A stretch of DNA of 38,122 nt from a virus: IMG/VR virus record IMGVR_UViG_3300008267_000133, positions 1 through 38,122 of that record; one strand, given 5' to 3'. Positions 3,960 to 38,122 of the stretch are shown here, piece by piece (positions within the stretch are counted from its first letter, which is position 1; each line of letters begins with the position of its first letter). The notes under the pieces are model-generated. The model was not told the origin of the DNA. It saw only the letters and a program-made list of their open reading frames with translations, and did no database searches. The translations under genes were made by a program, and so were the position numbers.

Positions 3960-4402
3960 ATAGCAAACTTGTTTCTGTTTACTCTGTAAGCTGCCAGCAT
4001 ATATCAATGCCTCAAGATGCAATAAATTTCGAGGTAATGAAATTTGCACCAAGATTTAGCTTAAGAGATTTTCATTCTATGCCTGATTTTGCTCAAAAAG
4101 TTTGCGTTGAGCGGTGGCCTGTTGTTGAGTTTAGAAATGCGGCAGATGGAGAGTGGCCGTTTAGAGATCAACCAGAATTCCCGCCTATATTCAAAAGCAC
4201 CTATATAGCCGTAGAACCTGAGCTTGAGAGGCTGATTGCAATAAAGTACAAAAGAGAAATTGATGCAGCAAAATCAAAAGCGCTGGTAGAAATAAGAAGT
4301 AGAGAGAAAATGCAGAGCAGTATTAATAAGTTCTTGATGCTGCCTTGGTATGTCCGCGTGTGGCAATCTGTATTTACTAAAAACTTGGAGCTAGCAAAAT
4401 GA
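3956..4402 (+). CDS. Hypothetical phage protein
   Basis: This 148-aa protein is not recognised. The N-terminal half has mixed strands (VSVYSVSCQHISMP, then FAPRFSLRDFHSMPDF). The C-terminal half is a charged helix (about 88-125) followed by an aromatic stretch (MLPWYVRVWQSVF). It is linked by ATGA overlaps on both sides, so it is part of the tightly packed operon 3527-6574. Confidence 0.6.
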   Translation: MNSKLVSVYSVSCQHISMPQDAINFEVMKFAPRFSLRDFHSMPDFAQKVCVERWPVVEFRNAADGEWPFRDQPEFPPIFKSTYIAVEPELERLIAIKYKREIDAAKSKALVEIRSREKMQSSINKFLMLPWYVRVWQSVFTKNLELAK

Positions 4403-4689
4403 ACGTCCAACAAATAGCAATAGAAATCGACACATTGCGCAGTGCAAAGAGAGAAATTGAAGAAGCGCAAGGAAAGCTTGTTTATCTGTGTGAAGGAATC
4501 ACATCAGAAAACGCGCTTCAAATTAGATCTAGCTATCGTGGTGTCGTTTCAATAATTGAAGATGAAAACCTGTCATCGCATGAAAAGTTAATTATTGAGT
4601 CGCTAAAAGCAATGTTAAAAGATGAAATTGCAAGACTTACAGAAACCTGCACAAAAGCTGAAAGCAACATAAAGGAGCTAGCAAAATGA
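4399..4689 (+). CDS. Hypothetical helical protein
   Basis: This 96-aa protein is almost wholly helical, with two charged coiled-coil-like stretches (residues 3-30 and 60-95, many E/K/L/I) around a polar middle. It is unrecognised. It overlaps its neighbours by ATGA at 4399 and 4686. Confidence 0.6.
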   Translation: MNVQQIAIEIDTLRSAKREIEEAQGKLVYLCEGITSENALQIRSSYRGVVSIIEDENLSSHEKLIIESLKAMLKDEIARLTETCTKAESNIKELAK

Positions 4690-4847
4690 TAGAATTCTTA
4701 ATCTTGTCAACAATAGTGCTGATTTATTTTGCGATCAAAGCAGCCCGCGAAGAAATGAAAAGAATCGAAGAATCTTCTCAAATCTCTGAGGACTGGGAGC
4801 ATTTTATAAAGACTGGCGATGATCGCAAATGGAGAAAGAGAAAATGA
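4686..4847 (+). CDS. 53-aa membrane-anchored small protein
   Basis: A short frame with an N-terminal hydrophobic segment (FLILSTIVLIYFAI) and then a charged cytoplasmic-type tail (AAREEMKRIEESS, ending KWRKRK). It starts by overlapping the previous stop (ATGA) and ends by overlapping the next start in the same way, which supports it as real. Function is unknown. Confidence 0.65.
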   Translation: MIEFLILSTIVLIYFAIKAAREEMKRIEESSQISEDWEHFIKTGDDRKWRKRK

Positions 4848-5056
4848 AAGGACTAGCCGAAGCCAAAGCCGCCATCATCAAAGCGCAGAACCAAGACCAG
4901 CTTTACAAAGCCGTCGAGTCAATCTGCTTTGATGCTGGCTATCGTTTTGCCGATGATTGTGATTTGCTAGAAAATGCAGAGTTTGCGCTGTTGCAAGGCA
5001 AACCTGGAGTTGCTGAATTATTGCGTTATGCTGATATTAAGGAAGGGAAGTTATGA
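4844..5056 (+). CDS. Hypothetical small protein
   Basis: A 70-aa protein starting at the ATG overlapping the previous stop (ATGA at 4844-4847). An ATG 15 bp upstream is less likely because it breaks that junction. It is helical, with FDAGYRFADDCDLLENAEFALL in the middle. No family is recognised. Confidence 0.6.
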   Translation: MKGLAEAKAAIIKAQNQDQLYKAVESICFDAGYRFADDCDLLENAEFALLQGKPGVAELLRYADIKEGKL

Positions 5057-24046: not shown

Positions 24047-25705
24047 TTACCATCCCATCGTTGGAATATTTATATTTGAATAGTCTACCACAGGAACCGG
24101 ATTATAGTCAGTTTCTGACATCATCACGCAATCCGCTAAGTTTGGCGAGTTAATGCCGAGCTTTTTCATTTCCTGCTTAGATGCAATCTGATAACCATTT
24201 CCAGAGCCGCGCTTTCTTGGAATGCGGCAAAGCTCAGTGCGCAATTGCGCCAAGTCTTGGCAATCAGAGCTAAAGCTAATCATCTCTGCGGGGTCTGTGT
24301 ATTCGCCGTGAATAACTGCGCGATATGTTCTGAAAACCCTTTGAGCTAGTCGAAAGTATCTCTGTGCGCGTATGTTGGCGAAAAACTCTTTATTGCTGAT
24401 TTGCTTGGTTGATTGTTCAATATAGTTTTCAGCAATGCCATCAGGATCATCAACTGAGCCAGAGCCGAAGAATTCCTCAATCTCCATACGTGCAGCGCTG
24501 AAAGCATCGCCAACTTGTCTGCGTAGTGATAAGCCAATACCTGTGGCATCATAAACGAATTTATCTGCACCAACTGCCAAAGCTGTCTCTGTGGCGATAT
24601 CGCAAGCGCTGTTTACATCTCCGCCGATGATGTTAATCAGGTTCGTTATGACTGAGCCATGACGCACGCATACTCCCTTTGCATCACCTGAGTCAGCAGG
24701 GTCATGTGCAACAATCTTAGCGCCTTTCTGACGCCAGCCTAACTTGACATGCGCGTCAATGCAGGCATCGAACCATTCAGCAGTTATGATTGCATCCGGC
24801 AAGTGATCGTTAAACTCACCAAGCCATATATGGTCGTACAATGCGCGGCTAAAGTTAGCGTAAGCGAATTGCCTTTCACCTTCTAAACCTGAGTCATCAA
24901 ACCACGGATTGTCTTCAAAGTTCATCTTGATAATTGTATGCAGTTCATCAATATAAACGCCATCTGCGTCAAGATGTGCCTTGTATGGCGCTATAAAGCG
25001 TTTACTAAACGGGTCATTGGCTGACTGAGGGTTTCCTATAAAAACAAGCTGCACGCTGCGCAATGTGTCTTCATCAATGATTTCTTTCTTGCCGCCGAAC
25101 TTTGTTGGCAAGCCAGCCTTTGCAATGTTCCGCGCTGTCGGCGTCAATACGTTCAAAGACTTTTCAGAAAGAAATTGGCTTTCTTCAATAACAAAGCGAT
25201 TAAAGCCAGCAGCAGACTTAACTGACTCAGGATTTCTTGCTAAGCCCTGAAAGCTAAATGAGCCGCCGTTCTCATGGTATATGCCGTCATTCTGTGACGT
25301 ATAGCCACTCATTGCTAAGCGCTGTATCTCGATGTTAAGCAGTGAATAAACAGAATCGCGCATCGAGGCCTGGAACTCTCGAAGCTCCATGACTTTGTAC
25401 TGAGCATCTTTAACTAAAACTAGGTCAATGTCAGCTTGGTTGTTTGACTTACCAGAGCCGCGTCCGCCGACAATAACGACGAAACGAGTTTTTGCCCTTA
25501 ATGCAATTTCCATCTTTGCGGGAATGAATATAGTAGGCGGCCTGCCTGTCTTTTCCCAATCGCCACCAGAATACATTATGGAATGTGTCAAACCCTTTAC
25601 AGGGCAGACAACGCCAAAGACCTCTTTAATGTCAGTTGATGCTTGAGCAACTACCTTCTTTGTTTCTTGCTCTAGCTTTTCGAGTCTGGCTTTTGTTATG
25701 CGCAT
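24047..25705 (-). CDS. Terminase large subunit, Sf6 gp2-like
   Basis: A 552-aa packaging ATPase/nuclease. Walker A is GGRGSGKS (80-87) and Walker B FVIEES (171-176, E174/E175). The C-terminal RNase H-like nuclease matches Sf6 gp2: KLGWRQKGAKIVAHDPADSG with D335, FVYDATGIG with D386, and SPNLADCVMM with D525, the counterparts of Sf6 D244, D296 and D444. The nuclease half ends YRAVIHGEYTDPAEM, also Sf6-like. About 60 extra N-terminal residues precede the ATPase. It packages DNA by the headful mechanism typical of this family. It overlaps its upstream neighbour by TAATG. Confidence 0.95.
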   Translation of the reverse strand: MRITKARLEKLEQETKKVVAQASTDIKEVFGVVCPVKGLTHSIMYSGGDWEKTGRPPTIFIPAKMEIALRAKTRFVVIVGGRGSGKSNNQADIDLVLVKDAQYKVMELREFQASMRDSVYSLLNIEIQRLAMSGYTSQNDGIYHENGGSFSFQGLARNPESVKSAAGFNRFVIEESQFLSEKSLNVLTPTARNIAKAGLPTKFGGKKEIIDEDTLRSVQLVFIGNPQSANDPFSKRFIAPYKAHLDADGVYIDELHTIIKMNFEDNPWFDDSGLEGERQFAYANFSRALYDHIWLGEFNDHLPDAIITAEWFDACIDAHVKLGWRQKGAKIVAHDPADSGDAKGVCVRHGSVITNLINIIGGDVNSACDIATETALAVGADKFVYDATGIGLSLRRQVGDAFSAARMEIEEFFGSGSVDDPDGIAENYIEQSTKQISNKEFFANIRAQRYFRLAQRVFRTYRAVIHGEYTDPAEMISFSSDCQDLAQLRTELCRIPRKRGSGNGYQIASKQEMKKLGINSPNLADCVMMSETDYNPVPVVDYSNINIPTMGW

Positions 25706-33258: not shown

Positions 33259-33518
33259 TTCGTTCTCTCCAATTCTGCAAGTAGTGCGTCGGCATGTTCA
33301 ACTGAAGACTCTGCAATGTTTTTTAGTAAATCGCTAGCCGATTCGTAAAGCTCAACATCTTTCCAGCAAGCGCCAATTAAACCCTGCATAGCCGCCATAG
33401 CAAACATTTCGCGTTTGGTTAAACCTACTTCAGTGCAGTAAATTTCCCTCTGACAATTTGCAGCCATATCTGCGTAAATTGTAGGAGCTGCTGGCAAATT
33501 TCCGTTGTTAGTTTTCAT
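33255..33518 (-). CDS. Hypothetical phage protein
   Basis: An 87-aa protein with the segment GLTKREMFAMAAMQGLIGA (about 33-51), another widespread phage early-protein motif, and a C-terminal helix (HADALLAELERTK). Function is unknown. It is second in the early minus operon, overlapping the HTH gene's stop (ATGA). Confidence 0.65.
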   Translation of the reverse strand: MKTNNGNLPAAPTIYADMAANCQREIYCTEVGLTKREMFAMAAMQGLIGACWKDVELYESASDLLKNIAESSVEHADALLAELERTK

Positions 33519-33691
33519 TCTTCTTCCCCTTTATAGTTAGTCTCTGCCGTCTTAATCCAAACAGCGCCTTGCTCGTCAATCTTTGCGCCTGCCTTAACCC
33601 ATCGATCAACAGTCGCATGGCATTTGTTTAACACCTTGCCAGTTTTGCGCAGGCTGCCGTATTTGCGCACTAGGTCTGATACTGGTTTCAT
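33515..33691 (-). CDS. 58-aa Cro-sized HTH protein
   Basis: The first gene of the minus arm. It reads MKPVSDLVRKYGSLRKTGKV, then NKCHATVDRWVKAGAKIDEQ and GAVWIKTAE: a helix-turn-helix whose recognition helix (HATVDRWVK) is followed by a beta hairpin, as in small Cro-like proteins. It lies immediately downstream of the dyad-bearing promoter at 33721-33748 and opposite the RHH-like gene, like the two regulators of an early switch. Autoregulation is inferred. Confidence 0.7.
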   Translation of the reverse strand: MKPVSDLVRKYGSLRKTGKVLNKCHATVDRWVKAGAKIDEQGAVWIKTAETNYKGEEE

Positions 33692-33720
33692 TTCATCTCT
33701 CAGTTGTTGTTTGTGATTCT

Positions 33721-33748
33721 AATGTATCACATCTGCGCCAATGGTCAA
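33721..33748 (-). promoter_or_regulatory. Main early minus-strand promoter with operator
   Basis: Minus-strand TTGACC (complement 33743-33748), 16-bp spacer, TACATT (complement 33721-33726). The dyad ATGT-GAT-ACAT overlaps the -10. The promoter is nearly the same as 29341-29368. A third copy of the dyad (ATGTA-A-TACAT) lies upstream at 33825-33835. Confidence 0.8.
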
Positions 33749-34092
33749 GCTGAAAGTTGCTTTATTTTGTAAGATTTGCAGCGCCATGTCAGGCCATGTA
33801 AGGCTCATGTCAGATTAGTTTTTGATGTAATACATTGATTTATATGGGTTTTATGTGTTTCTTGTAAGAATTACAGCAAGCCACACATATATCTATATAT
33901 TTTCATGCCGGCATAACCAGGTTAATGACAGTATAAATTTATAAAATATATATGGTAGGTATAAATCCTTACATAATTAATTATTATTAGTATATATCCC
34001 TTATATATCAACAGTTTAAGTGTGTAGCGACAATCTTACAAAGTCGCTACACGGCGCTACAAGGATTAGCGAGCTAATTGAGCGAAAACGGC
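33749..34092. other. Gene-free AT-rich repeat region: candidate replication origin/early switch
   Basis: There are 344 bp without a gene between divergent operons. It holds: TTTGTAAGATT (33766-33776), CTTGTAAGAAT (33861-33871) and an inverted exact copy AATCTTACAAA (34032-34042); three CATGT(C/A)AG repeats at one-turn spacing (33785-33813); palindromes ATGTA-A-TACAT (33825-33835) and ATGCCGGCAT (33905-33914); a roughly 200-bp very AT-rich stretch (33815-34020); and a perfect 10-bp hairpin (34022-34052). Iterons next to a melting region, beside primase/ATPase genes, suggest an origin. No clear DnaA box was seen. Confidence 0.55.
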
Positions 34093-34121
34093 TTGCATTT
34101 TATAAAACGCTGTTTTACTAT
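34093..34121 (+). promoter_or_regulatory. Main plus-strand promoter for replication genes
   Basis: The -35 is TTGCAT (34093-34098), the spacer 17 bp, the -10 TACTAT (34116-34121). A palindrome AAAAC-GCT-GTTTT (34104-34116) fills the spacer. It has the same -10 and a spacer dyad like the promoter at 607-635. The RHH-like gene begins 25 bp downstream. Confidence 0.75.
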
Positions 34122-34145
34122 TGTTAGACATTAACCGGAGGACTT

Positions 34146-34292
34146 ATGAAAGAAACCCACGTTTTTAAAGGTGTTAAGCTAACTGAAAAGCAAGTTCGAT
34201 TCGTGCAAGCCATGGCAGATAAAAGCTATGAAGGCAACTTCAGCATGGCGTTGCGCACCATTCTTGCGAAAACAATGAAGGATGCAAAGTAA
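34146..34292 (+). CDS. 48-aa ribbon-helix-helix-like protein
   Basis: A short frame after GGAGG (spacing 5-6). It has a beta strand with K/V/L alternation (FKGVKLTEKQ), then two helices (VRFVQAMADKSY and SMALRTILAKTM) joined by a short turn, the plan of Arc/MetJ-type ribbon-helix-helix regulators. First gene of the replication operon, it shares the TAATG junction with the next gene. It could bind the dyad at 34104-34116. The fold is inferred from the pattern alone. Confidence 0.6.
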   Translation: MKETHVFKGVKLTEKQVRFVQAMADKSYEGNFSMALRTILAKTMKDAK

Positions 34293-34867
34293 TGGCACTA
34301 ATAGACCAGCACTTAAGGCTGTGCAAGCCGGTGCAGCCTGGCAACAGCATTTTGCAAAGCGTAGGCGTTGATCCAAATTCATGGCCTGATTTGATGGATT
34401 ATCAAGGATTAATCGCTGCGCCAATGTTTGACTTCCACACTGGCAATATTACTGCAGTTGCTTGCACTGATGGAGTTAATCGCGTTAGCTACGCAGGAAG
34501 CGGCAGAGCGCGTCAGTGCGGTTTTTATGTTGGCTCTGCTATTCGCCTTAACTCTGAATTTGCAGAACTTACAGGCTCGGATAAACCTCTTATTTTTTGC
34601 ACTGACTTAATAACGTCAATTCTTGTGAACTTAATCACTCGATTGCCGGTTATGTTTTCCACTGATGTGACAGCTTTTAAGTTCTCCGGTGCAACTGAGT
34701 GCTATATTAGACAACCCACGTCAAGATCAATTGAAAATGCACTGAATGCTTGCGGTGATGTTGATTTGTGGTTTCCTGTTGGAAGTATCGAAAGCACAAG
34801 ACACGTCAAATGGATGGATGCTGTACAAGCTGCAGCAATGATTGAGGTTAATTATGATCACGCCTGA
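34292..34867 (+). CDS. Degenerate TOPRIM-like primase-associated protein
   Basis: A 191-aa protein. Its order of segments follows phage/plasmid TOPRIM primases: YQGLIAAPMFDFHTGNITAV (38-57), GFYVGSAIRL (77-86), then KPLIFCTDLITSILVNLITRLPVMFS (98-123), where the family has 'hhxxEGxxTALxhxxxTGxPVhxA'. The catalytic Glu-Gly is replaced by Thr-Asp (104-105), and the later DxD is not clear. With the DUF3987 ATPase directly downstream it probably forms a split primase-helicase unit, active or not. Confidence 0.55.
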   Translation: MALIDQHLRLCKPVQPGNSILQSVGVDPNSWPDLMDYQGLIAAPMFDFHTGNITAVACTDGVNRVSYAGSGRARQCGFYVGSAIRLNSEFAELTGSDKPLIFCTDLITSILVNLITRLPVMFSTDVTAFKFSGATECYIRQPTSRSIENALNACGDVDLWFPVGSIESTRHVKWMDAVQAAAMIEVNYDHA

Positions 34868-36377
34868 TTACGCAAAAGCGCAACAACACGCACGAAAAGA
34901 AAACTTACCGCTGCCGATCGCCGCGATGGATTTGCATAACGCAAACATTAAAAACCCTATGTATTGGGAAGATGTTCAGTATTTTACAACTGAAGATGAT
35001 AACAACAAAACGCCAAACATTATTACTCATGGCGGTTATGTTGCAGATCTGGCAAAGGCTAAAGCTGCAGAAGTTATTTTCCCAGAAAACAGCGCTTTTT
35101 TGCATGGCCTTGGAGTGATTGCCGGCGCTGCAGGTTATAACTTTAAATACCAGTATTACACTGAACAAAAAGCTGTAAACCTGTTTTGTGTAGCAAGCCA
35201 GCCGCCATCAACCGGTAAAAGCTCGATATTCAGTTTTTTCAGCAAGCCGTTTGCTCATGCTTTTTCTGAAATGAATACGCGCAACCGGTCAAAGCGTAAG
35301 CTATTAGAAAAAGAACTTAAAGAGCTTTACGATGCGCAGGAAGAAGGGCGCAACGTCGGCATTGAGTTAGAGCATACAATTGCAGCTTTGCGCGATGTGG
35401 CGCACATCAAATGGTATTTAGATGACGTAACACCTGAAGCTGCAGAAGCGATCGCCGGCAAACAATCTGGCTATTTAAATATCCTTTCTCCTGAGTCTGA
35501 TGCGGTCAACGTCATTCTTGGAAATGTGTACGGCGACGGGAAAGGCAAAGCTAACCACGGCTTATTCCTGAAGATGTGGGACACCGAATGGCACAGCTCC
35601 GCTCGCGTTACCCGTGACGGCTTTGAAGGTGAGCTTTACGGATCTGTTTCAGTGCTAGCACAAGATGAGTCAATCGACACAATCTTGCGCATTGGCCAGG
35701 ATAGCGGCCGCGGCATTTCTGAACGCTTTTTGTTAATACGTGAACCAAATCTTTTCGGTAAGCGCAAAAGCTCAAGCCGAGTTAAGGCAGACCAAACGCT
35801 GGTAAATGAATTTAACGACACTGCAAAAAATATTGTTTCAGCACCTAAAACAGTTTTGACATTTAGCGCTGCAGCGTTTGCTATGGTAAACAAAGTCACC
35901 GATGAACTAGATAACAAGATGAGCGACGGAAAAGAATTTAGCAGCTCGATGATCCGCGGAGCTGCAGGCAAGGCTGATAAACAGATTTATAAAATAGCCT
36001 CAATTATGCACATTGCAGAAGATTGGCGGCCGGCCGGCAAAAAGCGAAGCAAGGTCGATGACAAGCATGTAAAAAACGCCATTCAGATTTTTATGGAGCT
36101 ATTAAAGACGTATTTAAGCGCTGCAGATGACATGCGGATTTCTGGACAGTCAACAGAGGTTAGCTTTGTTGCCGATCGCATTGTTGAACTTAGTCGGAAA
36201 AAGACTATAGCATTAAGCACTGCCAGGTTACGAGATGAAGTTAGAAACCGCGGCCCATTGAAAGGCGTTAGCGGGATTACTGACAAAATCAAGACGGTTT
36301 ACATTCCAGAGCTGCAGAAACGCGGTTATTTGGTTGAGCATAACGGCATGGTTTACATCAATCCGAAATTAGCATAG
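34854..36377 (+). CDS. DUF3987-type replicative ATPase/helicase
   Basis: A 507-aa protein. P-loop SQPPSTGKSS (115-124) is in the style of DUF3987/YfjI-like ATPases. A Walker-B-like acidic pair is at D190-D191 (WYLDDVTPEA), followed by the family's 'TxExL/I' region. Later motifs include YGSVSVLAQDESI and GISERFLLI, where the latter contains an arginine like an arginine finger. The C-terminus has a winged-helix-like end. The ATG at 34854 follows GAGGTTAATT, and an alternative TTG is 12 bp upstream. It is probably the fork helicase or primase partner. Confidence 0.75.
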   Translation: MITPDYAKAQQHARKENLPLPIAAMDLHNANIKNPMYWEDVQYFTTEDDNNKTPNIITHGGYVADLAKAKAAEVIFPENSAFLHGLGVIAGAAGYNFKYQYYTEQKAVNLFCVASQPPSTGKSSIFSFFSKPFAHAFSEMNTRNRSKRKLLEKELKELYDAQEEGRNVGIELEHTIAALRDVAHIKWYLDDVTPEAAEAIAGKQSGYLNILSPESDAVNVILGNVYGDGKGKANHGLFLKMWDTEWHSSARVTRDGFEGELYGSVSVLAQDESIDTILRIGQDSGRGISERFLLIREPNLFGKRKSSSRVKADQTLVNEFNDTAKNIVSAPKTVLTFSAAAFAMVNKVTDELDNKMSDGKEFSSSMIRGAAGKADKQIYKIASIMHIAEDWRPAGKKRSKVDDKHVKNAIQIFMELLKTYLSAADDMRISGQSTEVSFVADRIVELSRKKTIALSTARLRDEVRNRGPLKGVSGITDKIKTVYIPELQKRGYLVEHNGMVYINPKLA

Positions 36378-36395: not shown

Positions 36396-38122
36396 ATGAC
36401 TTATCAACTGCGGCCGGAATATCAACTGCCGGCACATATCGCAACCATTGAACACTGCAAAGCAAGCGCAGAGCCAGCATTTCACAACATGAGTGTTGGA
36501 GCCGGCAAAACTATCAACATCGCTTTTATGTGTCAGCATGTTGTCAGTAAAGGCGGTAAAGTGCTGGTATTGGCTCGCCAAGGTGAGTTGATTGAGCAAA
36601 ACGCTGATGATGCCTGGTCGATTGGTGTTAAGACTTCAATTTTTAGCGCAAGCCTAAACAAGAAAAGCACAGTATTCAATTGTGTTATGGGTACAGAAGG
36701 CACTGTAAGCAATCACTTGCTTGATGTGTTTAGTGAATGGCTGCCTGATTGCATTTTTATTGATGAATGTCATATGGTTGATTGGCAGGATATTTTGGCC
36801 GATGAGCCAGAGACTCAGTACGGCAAAATAATTAGTCACTTTAAGCGGCTAAAACCAAAGCTGCGAGTTATTGGTTACACTGGCTCGCCATACCGCGGCA
36901 CTGAAGCAATCAAAGGCCCATACTGGAAGCATCAGCTTTCCGATGTTGGCACAATGCAACTTATTCAGCTTGGCTTTTTGGTTCCGCCAATTTTCGGCTT
37001 TGGCGATGATGATCATCATTATGATCTTGGTGAGTTTAAGCCGGCCGGCGGTGAAGGTGCGCACGATTTCACTGCAAAAGAACTTGCAGCAATGGGAAGG
37101 AAACTTACCAAAGACAAAACAATGACTCAGCAAATCATGGAGCAGGTGCAAGCAATTGCAGCCGGCAGAAATGGCGTGCTAATAACATGCGCCAGCAAAA
37201 AGCACTGTGAGCAGGTAGCGGAGTGTTTACCTGAAGGAACTTGGGGTATTGTTACCGATGACACCAGCACAAAAAACCGCAAAGCAATTTTAGATAAAGC
37301 AAAAAGCGGTGAGATTAAATATGTAATTCAAATTACCTGTCTAACAACTGGAGTTAATGTGCCGCGGTGGGATTTGCTTGTTATTCTGCGCAAGATTGGC
37401 AGCTTAACATTGCTTATACAGCTAACCGGTCGAGTGCTGCGACAATTAAAGCCTGAGCAGATAGCACAAGGCGTTAAAAAGTCTGATGCGCTTGTATTGG
37501 ATTTCACAGACACTTTTGAATCAATGGGCGATATTTACGATGACCCGATTGTCAACCAAGCGCTGCAGCAAAAATTACAAGGCAAGCGTGATGACTCAAT
37601 TGAATGCCCAAAGTGCAGCACGTTAAACAGCAAACATGCGCGCCGCTGCAGCGGCATTGATGCTAAAGGCCAACGCTGTGATCACTTCTGGATTTCTCGC
37701 CAGTGCAATAACTGCGGAGCTCATAACGATACAACTGCAAAAGATTGCCGCGACTGTGGCGCTGTGCTGATTGATCCAAACGCAAAGCTGCTGAACAAAG
37801 CATATACTGATGCAGATTTTAAACCGGTGAAGTCATTCAAGGCATCGCCAGGTAAAGGCGATAACTTGATCATAACTTATCAACTTGATAGCACTTACTT
37901 TGATGATGGAGTAGAAAAGCCAGAAGTTGCACGCGAGTTTTTCAGCCCATTTAGCGCACAGCCGCACATTAAAAATATGTGGTATAGATGGCTGCAGCAA
38001 CATGCGCCATTGCCTGACGTTAAAAACAAAATCATGCGCCCTCGCAGTAATGCAGAAATTGCCGCGGCAATTAACCAATTTGCAGAAGTTCCGACGCATA
38101 TAACACACCGGATCAACCCTAA
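36396..38122 (+). CDS. SF2 DNA helicase with zinc ribbons (continues at 115-193)
   Basis: The open frame leaves the right end and rejoins at the left end (601 aa in all). Motif I is SVGAGKT (33-39), II is DECH (123-126), III TGSP (162-165), and VI QLTGRVLR (342-349). Helicase domain 2 includes GVLITCASKKHCEQVAECL and TTGVNVPRWDLLV. After it come two Cys-rich ribbons: C404/C407/C418/C428 and C437/C440/C451/C454. It resembles phage DEAD/H-box helicases that remodel forks or recombination intermediates. The start follows AGGAATAAAAAGAA, 18 bp after the ATPase stop. Confidence 0.9.
   Translation, partial: MTYQLRPEYQLPAHIATIEHCKASAEPAFHNMSVGAGKTINIAFMCQHVVSKGGKVLVLARQGELIEQNADDAWSIGVKTSIFSASLNKKSTVFNCVMGTEGTVSNHLLDVFSEWLPDCIFIDECHMVDWQDILADEPETQYGKIISHFKRLKPKLRVIGYTGSPYRGTEAIKGPYWKHQLSDVGTMQLIQLGFLVPPIFGFGDDDHHYDLGEFKPAGGEGAHDFTAKELAAMGRKLTKDKTMTQQIMEQVQAIAAGRNGVLITCASKKHCEQVAECLPEGTWGIVTDDTSTKNRKAILDKAKSGEIKYVIQITCLTTGVNVPRWDLLVILRKIGSLTLLIQLTGRVLRQLKPEQIAQGVKKSDALVLDFTDTFESMGDIYDDPIVNQALQQKLQGKRDDSIECPKCSTLNSKHARRCSGIDAKGQRCDHFWISRQCNNCGAHNDTTAKDCRDCGAVLIDPNAKLLNKAYTDADFKPVKSFKASPGKGDNLIITYQLDSTYFDDGVEKPEVAREFFSPFSAQPHIKNMWYRWLQQHAPLPDVKNKIMRPRSNAEIAAAINQFAEVPTHITHRINP
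38009..38122. repeat. Right copy of 114-bp terminal direct repeat
   Basis: Identical to 1-114. It lies inside the helicase coding frame. See the left copy: it shows the molecule is circular or terminally redundant, not that it carries functional repeats. Confidence 0.95.

Follow-up and report, generated by a model that had tools for sequence, protein, structure and literature searches.

The window analysed here is the whole 38,122-nt stretch of the virus record IMGVR_UViG_3300008267_000133, which encodes phage portal, capsid/head, tail and terminase genes and whose first and last 114 bases are identical (1-114 and 38009-38122); the 38-kb phage record is complete and represents either a circle of about 38,008 bases or a molecule with terminal repeats. 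Its longest stretch free of open reading frames (ORFs) is a 454-bp gap between two divergent operons. The leftward operon begins with a gene for a small helix-turn-helix (HTH) protein, and the rightward one comprises a 48-aa ORF, a 191-aa ORF, a gene of the DUF3987 family, a superfamily 2 (SF2) helicase, an Erf-like annealing protein and a RecE-like exonuclease. The repeats in this gap and their counterparts in related phages, here labelled with L numbers, suggest that the interval is probably the replication origin of the phage, with iterons bound by the MCM-like DUF3987 protein.

The intergenic gap and its repeats

An earlier note on this DNA had listed several repeats in the gap, all of which are in place: an 11-mer, TTTGTAAGATT, at 33766-33776 with its exact inverse at 34032-34042, a near copy (CTTGTAAGAATT) around 33861, perfect 10-bp arms at 34022-34031 and 34043-34052 enclosing the inverse copy, a partial arm (GGCGCTAC) at 34053-34060, and the series CATGTCAG, CATGTAAG, CATGTCAG at 33785, 33795 and 33806, spaced 10 and 11 bp apart. 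A repeated exact 11-mer calls for caution, as it arises by itself in 26% of shuffles of such AT-rich DNA. The shorter words are enriched: the gap holds five copies of TGTAAG, compared to 0.34 in shuffled sequence (0 of 2000 shuffles), seven of TGT(A/C)AG(A/G), compared to 0.19, and three of TGTAGCG, compared to 0.04. The claim of an extremely AT-rich tract also holds, with 75.5% AT over the 200 bp from 33814 compared to 54.8% for the genome, and the AT-richest 60-, 100-, 150- and 200-bp windows of the genome all fall within the gap. The second AT-rich stretch of the genome (31247-31446, 71.5% AT over 200 bp) overlaps predicted genes.

Positions of the sites are given relative to a symmetry centre at 33918 (Table 1). 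Two matches to the consensus for integration host factor (IHF), taken as WATCAANNNNTTR, lie between the inner and the distal repeats at -84 and +94; the genome has just one further match of this kind. No DnaA boxes were found in the gap.

Layout in relatives

A profile search yielded 79 DUF3987 loci, which are partly redundant (33 groups at 85% identity). By their DUF3987 proteins, the closest relatives of the window are L003 (99% identical) and L005 (88%), and the cultured relatives TW1 and XCL1123 stand at about 35-36%. The L003 gap is 94% identical to that of the window over most of its length and has an identical left distal array; the outermost TGTAAGATT at 33768 may lie outside the array, because L003 has no such copy and L058 carries one beside different iterons. 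L005 retains the inner iterons, the right IHF-consensus site and the right array, and TGTAGCG sites replace its left array. On the left of its origin, L003 has about 500 additional bases (4337-4930), in which the leftward promoter region is copied. A search of viral contigs for the exact pattern GTGTAGCG..CGCTACAC..CGCTAC recovered the L005 group only, and matches to the 15-mer TTTAAGTGTGTAGCG were mostly due to chance.

When repeated 8-mers were searched for blindly, a word array that beats all 60 shuffles emerged in 28 of the 54 regions that lie upstream of DUF3987 genes, compared to 4 of 49 downstream coding control regions, one of which, L057, is itself an array of this kind just 3' of the gene. 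Delimiting the gaps by ORFs was dropped, since it cut too many regions (7 of 28 significant, 0 in the control). Further arrays near DUF3987 genes, outside the upstream set, occur in L042 and L045. The arrays of L057 (5619-6017) and L045 (5524-5958) lie 3' of the gene, as in satellites of the phage-inducible chromosomal island (PICI) type.

The word TGTAAGA is used in the window, L003, L005, TW1, L061 and L107; elsewhere the iterons read TCGGTAAG (L039), CGGACACT/CGGGCACT (L058, L041), AAGTAAGA (L046), AGGGTAAA (L067), TGGGTATG (L081) and CGGGCGAT (L097), among others, and the cultured Vibrio phage D93 has a ATTACCCC array together with two IHF-consensus matches. Read across these loci, the iteron word varies between phages and the layout is kept. 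Spacings between neighbouring copies on the same strand cluster at 9-11 bp (72 cases) and again at 19-21 bp. Measured from the centre of the AT-rich gap, sites that face inward are most frequent at 50-60 bp and at 110-160 bp, a pattern that a random-position null reproduced in 0 of 1000 runs. The shared layout thus consists of inward iterons about 50 bp to each side of an AT-rich core of about 100 bp, distal tandem arrays at one-turn spacing about 105-165 bp out, and IHF-consensus sites in between. Across 22 origins, 12 IHF-consensus sites were counted where shuffles gave 0.87 (0 of 300), an enrichment of about fourteen-fold, and most of them lie 72-107 bp from the centre. The repeats are therefore conserved in relatives, which the earlier note had named as a check, and its picture of iterons flanking an AT-rich melting region in a divergent gap is supported, the position being kept down to about 35% protein identity.

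The strongest 7-mer common to the origins is TGTAGCG (5 loci including the window, versus 0.3), which may be a variant of the iteron or else a site for a cofactor. In TW1, the gap holds 9 of the 10 TGTAAG copies present in 13 kb. A GTAA tetranucleotide repeat tract lies beside the left inner iterons of TW1 (L035, 2606-2646) and may represent decayed or expanded iteron cores.

Table 1. Features of the gap and its flanking genes in the window; offsets are relative to 33918
Feature	Coordinates	Strand	Offset	Remarks
Predicted replication origin, 454-bp gap between divergent operons	33692-34145	.		symmetry centre ~33918; layout common to relatives
Outermost TGTAAGA, doubtful array member	33768-33774	+	-148	missing from L003, present in L058 left flank
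Left distal array: TGTCAGG 33787, TGTAAGG 33797, TGTCAGA 33808	33787-33814	+	-128, -118, -107	spacing 10, 11 bp
IHF-consensus site AATCAATGTATTA	33828-33840	-	-84	consensus match
Left inner iteron TGTAAGA, inward	33863-33869	+	-52	kept in L003; TGTAAGATT in L005
AT-rich core between inner iterons, predicted melting region	33870-33966	.		72% AT
Right inner iteron TGTAAGG, inward	33967-33973	-	+52	kept in L003, L005
IHF-consensus site TATCAACAGTTTA	34006-34018	+	+94	kept in L003, L005
TGTAGCG, outward (left hairpin arm)	34023-34029	+	+108	TGTAGCG at +106 in TW1, +108 in L078, same orientation
Right distal iteron TGTAAGA, inward (hairpin loop)	34034-34040	-	+119	kept in L003, L005
TGTAGCG, inward (right hairpin arm)	34045-34051	-	+130	distal-array spacing
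TGTAGCG, inward (partial third arm)	34055-34061	-	+140	CGCTGCA in L003
58-aa HTH protein, first gene of leftward operon	33515-33691	-		unlikely iteron reader
Candidate leftward sigma-70 promoter, TTGACC-N16-TACATT, TG before -10	33721-33748	-		similar in L003 and L058
Weak candidate rightward promoter, TTGCAT-N17-TACTAT, 7/12	34093-34121	+		sequence reading; same spacing in L003, L005
48-aa protein, ribbon-helix-helix-like, possible regulator	34146-34292	+		strand-helix-helix; low-confidence model, pLDDT (predicted local distance difference test) 67
191-aa conserved protein, family unknown	34292-34867	+		sequence comparison with relatives
DUF3987 protein, predicted initiator helicase	34857-36377	+		MCM-like AAA+ ~60-430; predicted winged helix 431-506 (nt 36147-36374)

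The DUF3987 protein as candidate iteron reader

The DUF3987 protein matches its Pfam family (PF13148) with 109.1 bits against a cut-off of 27, and with 110.2 bits in a second search; a Walker A-like motif, PSTGKS (residues 117-122), is invariant in the five DUF3987 sequences compared. No solved structure matches the protein by sequence. Its structural model (pLDDT 88.5) is predicted to have an AAA+ fold of the MCM group, the best VIA-align match being the MCM structure 6mii (Z 17.4, 267 residues, root-mean-square deviation 3.6), and its C-terminus, with the order helix-strand-helix-helix-strand-strand, is predicted to form a winged helix. SaPI Rep, Cch and Cch2, the initiators of staphylococcal elements discussed below, are absent among the 50 fold matches listed for the model.

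The locus L058 bears on the identity of the protein that reads the iterons. Compared to the window, its HTH protein is 81% identical, its 191-aa protein 86% and its SF2 helicase 89%, and the core of its DUF3987 protein only 43%; this DUF3987 protein shares 89% identity with its L041 counterpart, and the L058 iterons are of the L041 class. These two loci have the same class of iterons although their small ORFs are unrelated. Judged by these identities, L058 (2764-5515) is a natural recombinant that joins a window-like left flank and 191-aa gene to L041-like iterons and an L041-like DUF3987 gene, and a matched exchange of origin and initiator is therefore implied. Because it is the DUF3987 gene that the iterons accompany in this recombinant, rather than the HTH gene, the small gene or the 191-aa gene, the DUF3987 protein is likely to be the iteron reader. 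Across 28 loci, similarity of the iteron words correlates with identity of the winged helix (r 0.37, permutation p 0.0002) and somewhat less with identity of the DUF3987 core (r 0.30).

Origin function, alternatives and known systems

Repeats, geometry, conservation, enrichment of IHF-consensus sites, co-segregation with DUF3987 and a predicted fold were computed, and from these we infer origin function, binding, hexamer loading, melting and IHF use, which would proceed as follows. The C-terminal winged helix of the DUF3987 protein would bind the iterons, and each of the two inward iterons, about 50 bp to either side of the AT-rich core, would seed a hexamer. Further subunits would come from the distal tandem arrays (about +/-107-140), with IHF bending at -84 and +94 bringing each array to its own inner iteron. 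ATPase action would then melt the core and the two hexamers would separate, and the host polymerase or replisome would presumably be recruited for copying, as the window genome gave no match to polymerase A or DnaB.

Several observations weigh against this reading of the locus as an origin bound by the DUF3987 protein. The blind 8-mer search over 1.5 kb upstream of DUF3987 misses the window repeats (21 of 60 shuffles were as good); the window array draws its significance from relatives, because its word was found blindly in them. About half of the DUF3987 loci have no array by the blind test, many of the relatives are related to one another, and the words used in the geometry test were taken from the blind search, so that these loci were already known to bear arrays. 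Among eight cultured phages checked, only Vibrio phage D93 has a convincing array. Five of the eight (L121, L122 and L124-L126, four of them annotated as Drexlerviridae) have no convincing array; in these phages DUF3987 sits within an operon that ends at the lysis genes, and no divergent gap adjoins it. In the Drexlerviridae checked, the neighbourhood of the DUF3987 gene did not show the layout. T1-like phages (TLS, here L091, and others) likewise show no array within about 4 kb of DUF3987, and the TLS paper also reported no iterons (PMC11447400). As for the protein, the MCM matches cover mainly residues 60-430, and among pairs below 60% core identity the core identity and the iteron word are uncorrelated (r -0.006).

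Of the other explanations, the one that fares best takes the repeats as operators of an early transcription switch, without origin function, bound by the HTH protein or by the 48-aa ribbon-helix-helix (RHH)-like protein. The gap divides divergent operons with candidate promoters on both sides, the products of both flanking genes resemble small DNA-binding proteins, and RHH and HTH regulators often bind sites one helical turn apart; moreover, TGTAGCG sites and the 48-aa ORF co-occur in the window, L003 and L005. Binding by a regulator only was what the earlier note had set against its own proposal, and for the HTH protein the matter is answered in part: it is well conserved in L058 though the iterons there differ, which makes it an unlikely reader. 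The unrelated small ORFs of L041 and L058, two loci with one class of iterons, argue similarly against the product of the other flanking gene as reader. TGTAGCG is also present in the TW1, L107 and L042 origins, at loci in which no relative of the 48-aa protein was found, and this weakens the case for that protein as the TGTAGCG binder. A symmetric layout around an AT-rich core, linked to DUF3987, would not be expected of operators, and we regard this explanation as unlikely. A role of the region as an early switch, which the earlier note had also suggested, is possible.

The earlier note had further proposed that an iteron is presented in the loop of a hairpin, and the 10-bp stem could in principle act as a single-strand structure, either as a priming or nicking site or by docking the initiator on its loop. 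The genome has no other perfect stem of 10 bp or more around a 3-15 nt loop (0.0025 expected from shuffles of the intergenic region); the DNA fold of this one has -10.8 kcal/mol (z -3.5), and a stem can be drawn in L003 and L005 as well. In L005, however, inner stem pairs are lost without compensation and the best fold joins different arms, among the few relatives compared, and in a second copy in L005 the spacing of the arms changes from 22 to 11 bp, one helical turn. The stem also lies upstream of the candidate rightward start, hence outside the rightward transcript. In L069, L072, L066 and TW1, a single outward site about 95-115 bp from the centre precedes inward sites that succeed one another every 10-12 bp. 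Because relatives have this same order and spacing, left arm, loop, right arm and third arm are better explained as one right distal array of four duplex sites at one-turn steps (+108, +119, +130 and +140). The loop presentation of the iteron is thus not supported, and the hairpin as a functional unit, which we judge very unlikely, was rejected on spacing and conservation.

That the region is a phage attachment, site-specific recombination or packaging site is scarcely credible: IHF sites and inverted repeats do occur in such sites, but the genome has no Phage_integrase match (14 of 14 control genomes were positive), its gene set is of the virulent type, and the large terminase gene (24047-25705) lies about 8 kb away.

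The skew minimum that the earlier note had offered as a check is located here but merely tracks gene direction and is uninformative. In minus-strand genes, the third-position skew stays near zero (-0.015 and 0.022) on either side of the point that lies opposite the gap. GC skew was rejected as an origin test.

Several known systems resemble the proposed origin in part. The origins of PICIs and of Staphylococcus aureus pathogenicity islands (SaPIs) likewise use element-specific iterons (PMC6092414, PMC7581432), and SaPI Rep is a helicase initiator that, like SCCmec Cch2 (of the staphylococcal cassette chromosome mec), binds iterons through its C-terminal domain (PMC7581432), a mode only predicted for DUF3987. 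Those origins lie immediately 3' of rep, whereas the proposed origin of the window lies 5' of DUF3987, two small genes away; DUF3987 origins are usually found 5' of the gene in a divergent gap, and 3' only in L045 and L057. PICIs and SaPIs are integrated satellites with an integrase, in contrast to this complete virulent phage, in which the predicted initiator is a DUF3987 protein and inner and distal iterons have IHF-consensus sites between them. SCCmec Cch2 and Cch share with the present system a helicase, a C-terminal DNA-binding domain and short repeated iterons; unlike here, Cch belongs to DUF927, Cch2 is D5-like, and three iterons lie downstream of the gene (PMC7581432). DUF3987 ATPases fused to PrimPol primases are predicted helicases of mobile elements, and a C-terminal winged helix has been suggested for origin recognition in their supergroup (PMC5862659); the family is the same, but the protein here stands alone beside its proposed origin. 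The lambda origin, bound by the O protein, also has iterons beside an AT-rich stretch, whereas the window genome has no Phage_rep_O (PF04492) match, its iterons lie outside the initiator gene, and the predicted initiator is itself an ATPase. Iteron plasmids of the Rep_3 type, such as F and R6K, combine iterons, an AT-rich region and IHF sites; the window genome differs in having no Rep_3 (PF01051) match, no DnaA boxes in the gap, and iterons in two opposed sets.

It is an even call whether these loci represent a type of replication origin that is widespread among virulent phages, at which the MCM-like DUF3987 protein, standing alone, would both recognise the origin and load itself as the helicase. 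The iterons, specific to each phage, would form two sets in mirror image; within each set, host IHF would fold the distal array and the inner site together, and each set would load a single hexamer around the AT-rich core. Origin and initiator would be exchanged between phages as a matched pair. Origins and origin-binding proteins are unknown for many DUF3987-bearing phages: the authors describing Pantoea phage AAS23 could find no origin-binding protein (PMC8004638), and we found no published account of the origins of TW1 and Vi II-E1. For about twenty groups of phages, the present result supplies a testable origin, a named candidate initiator and a site word that can be read. It also shows that iterons in two sets, a layout described as unique to phage satellites (PICIs, PMC6092414), occur in virulent phages too. 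If the reading is true, an MCM-like phage protein that recognises its own origin would be a simple system for the study of helicase loading.

Among the flanking features, promoter-like matches in the region are at chance level (3 against 2.5 expected), and the promoter scan did not report the rightward candidate. Three relatives in all were found for the 48-aa protein, and the genome collection holds none. The 191-aa protein, encoded between the gap and DUF3987, is kept in close relatives and has no Pfam or PHROG match; by eye, it looks like a degenerate TOPRIM domain.
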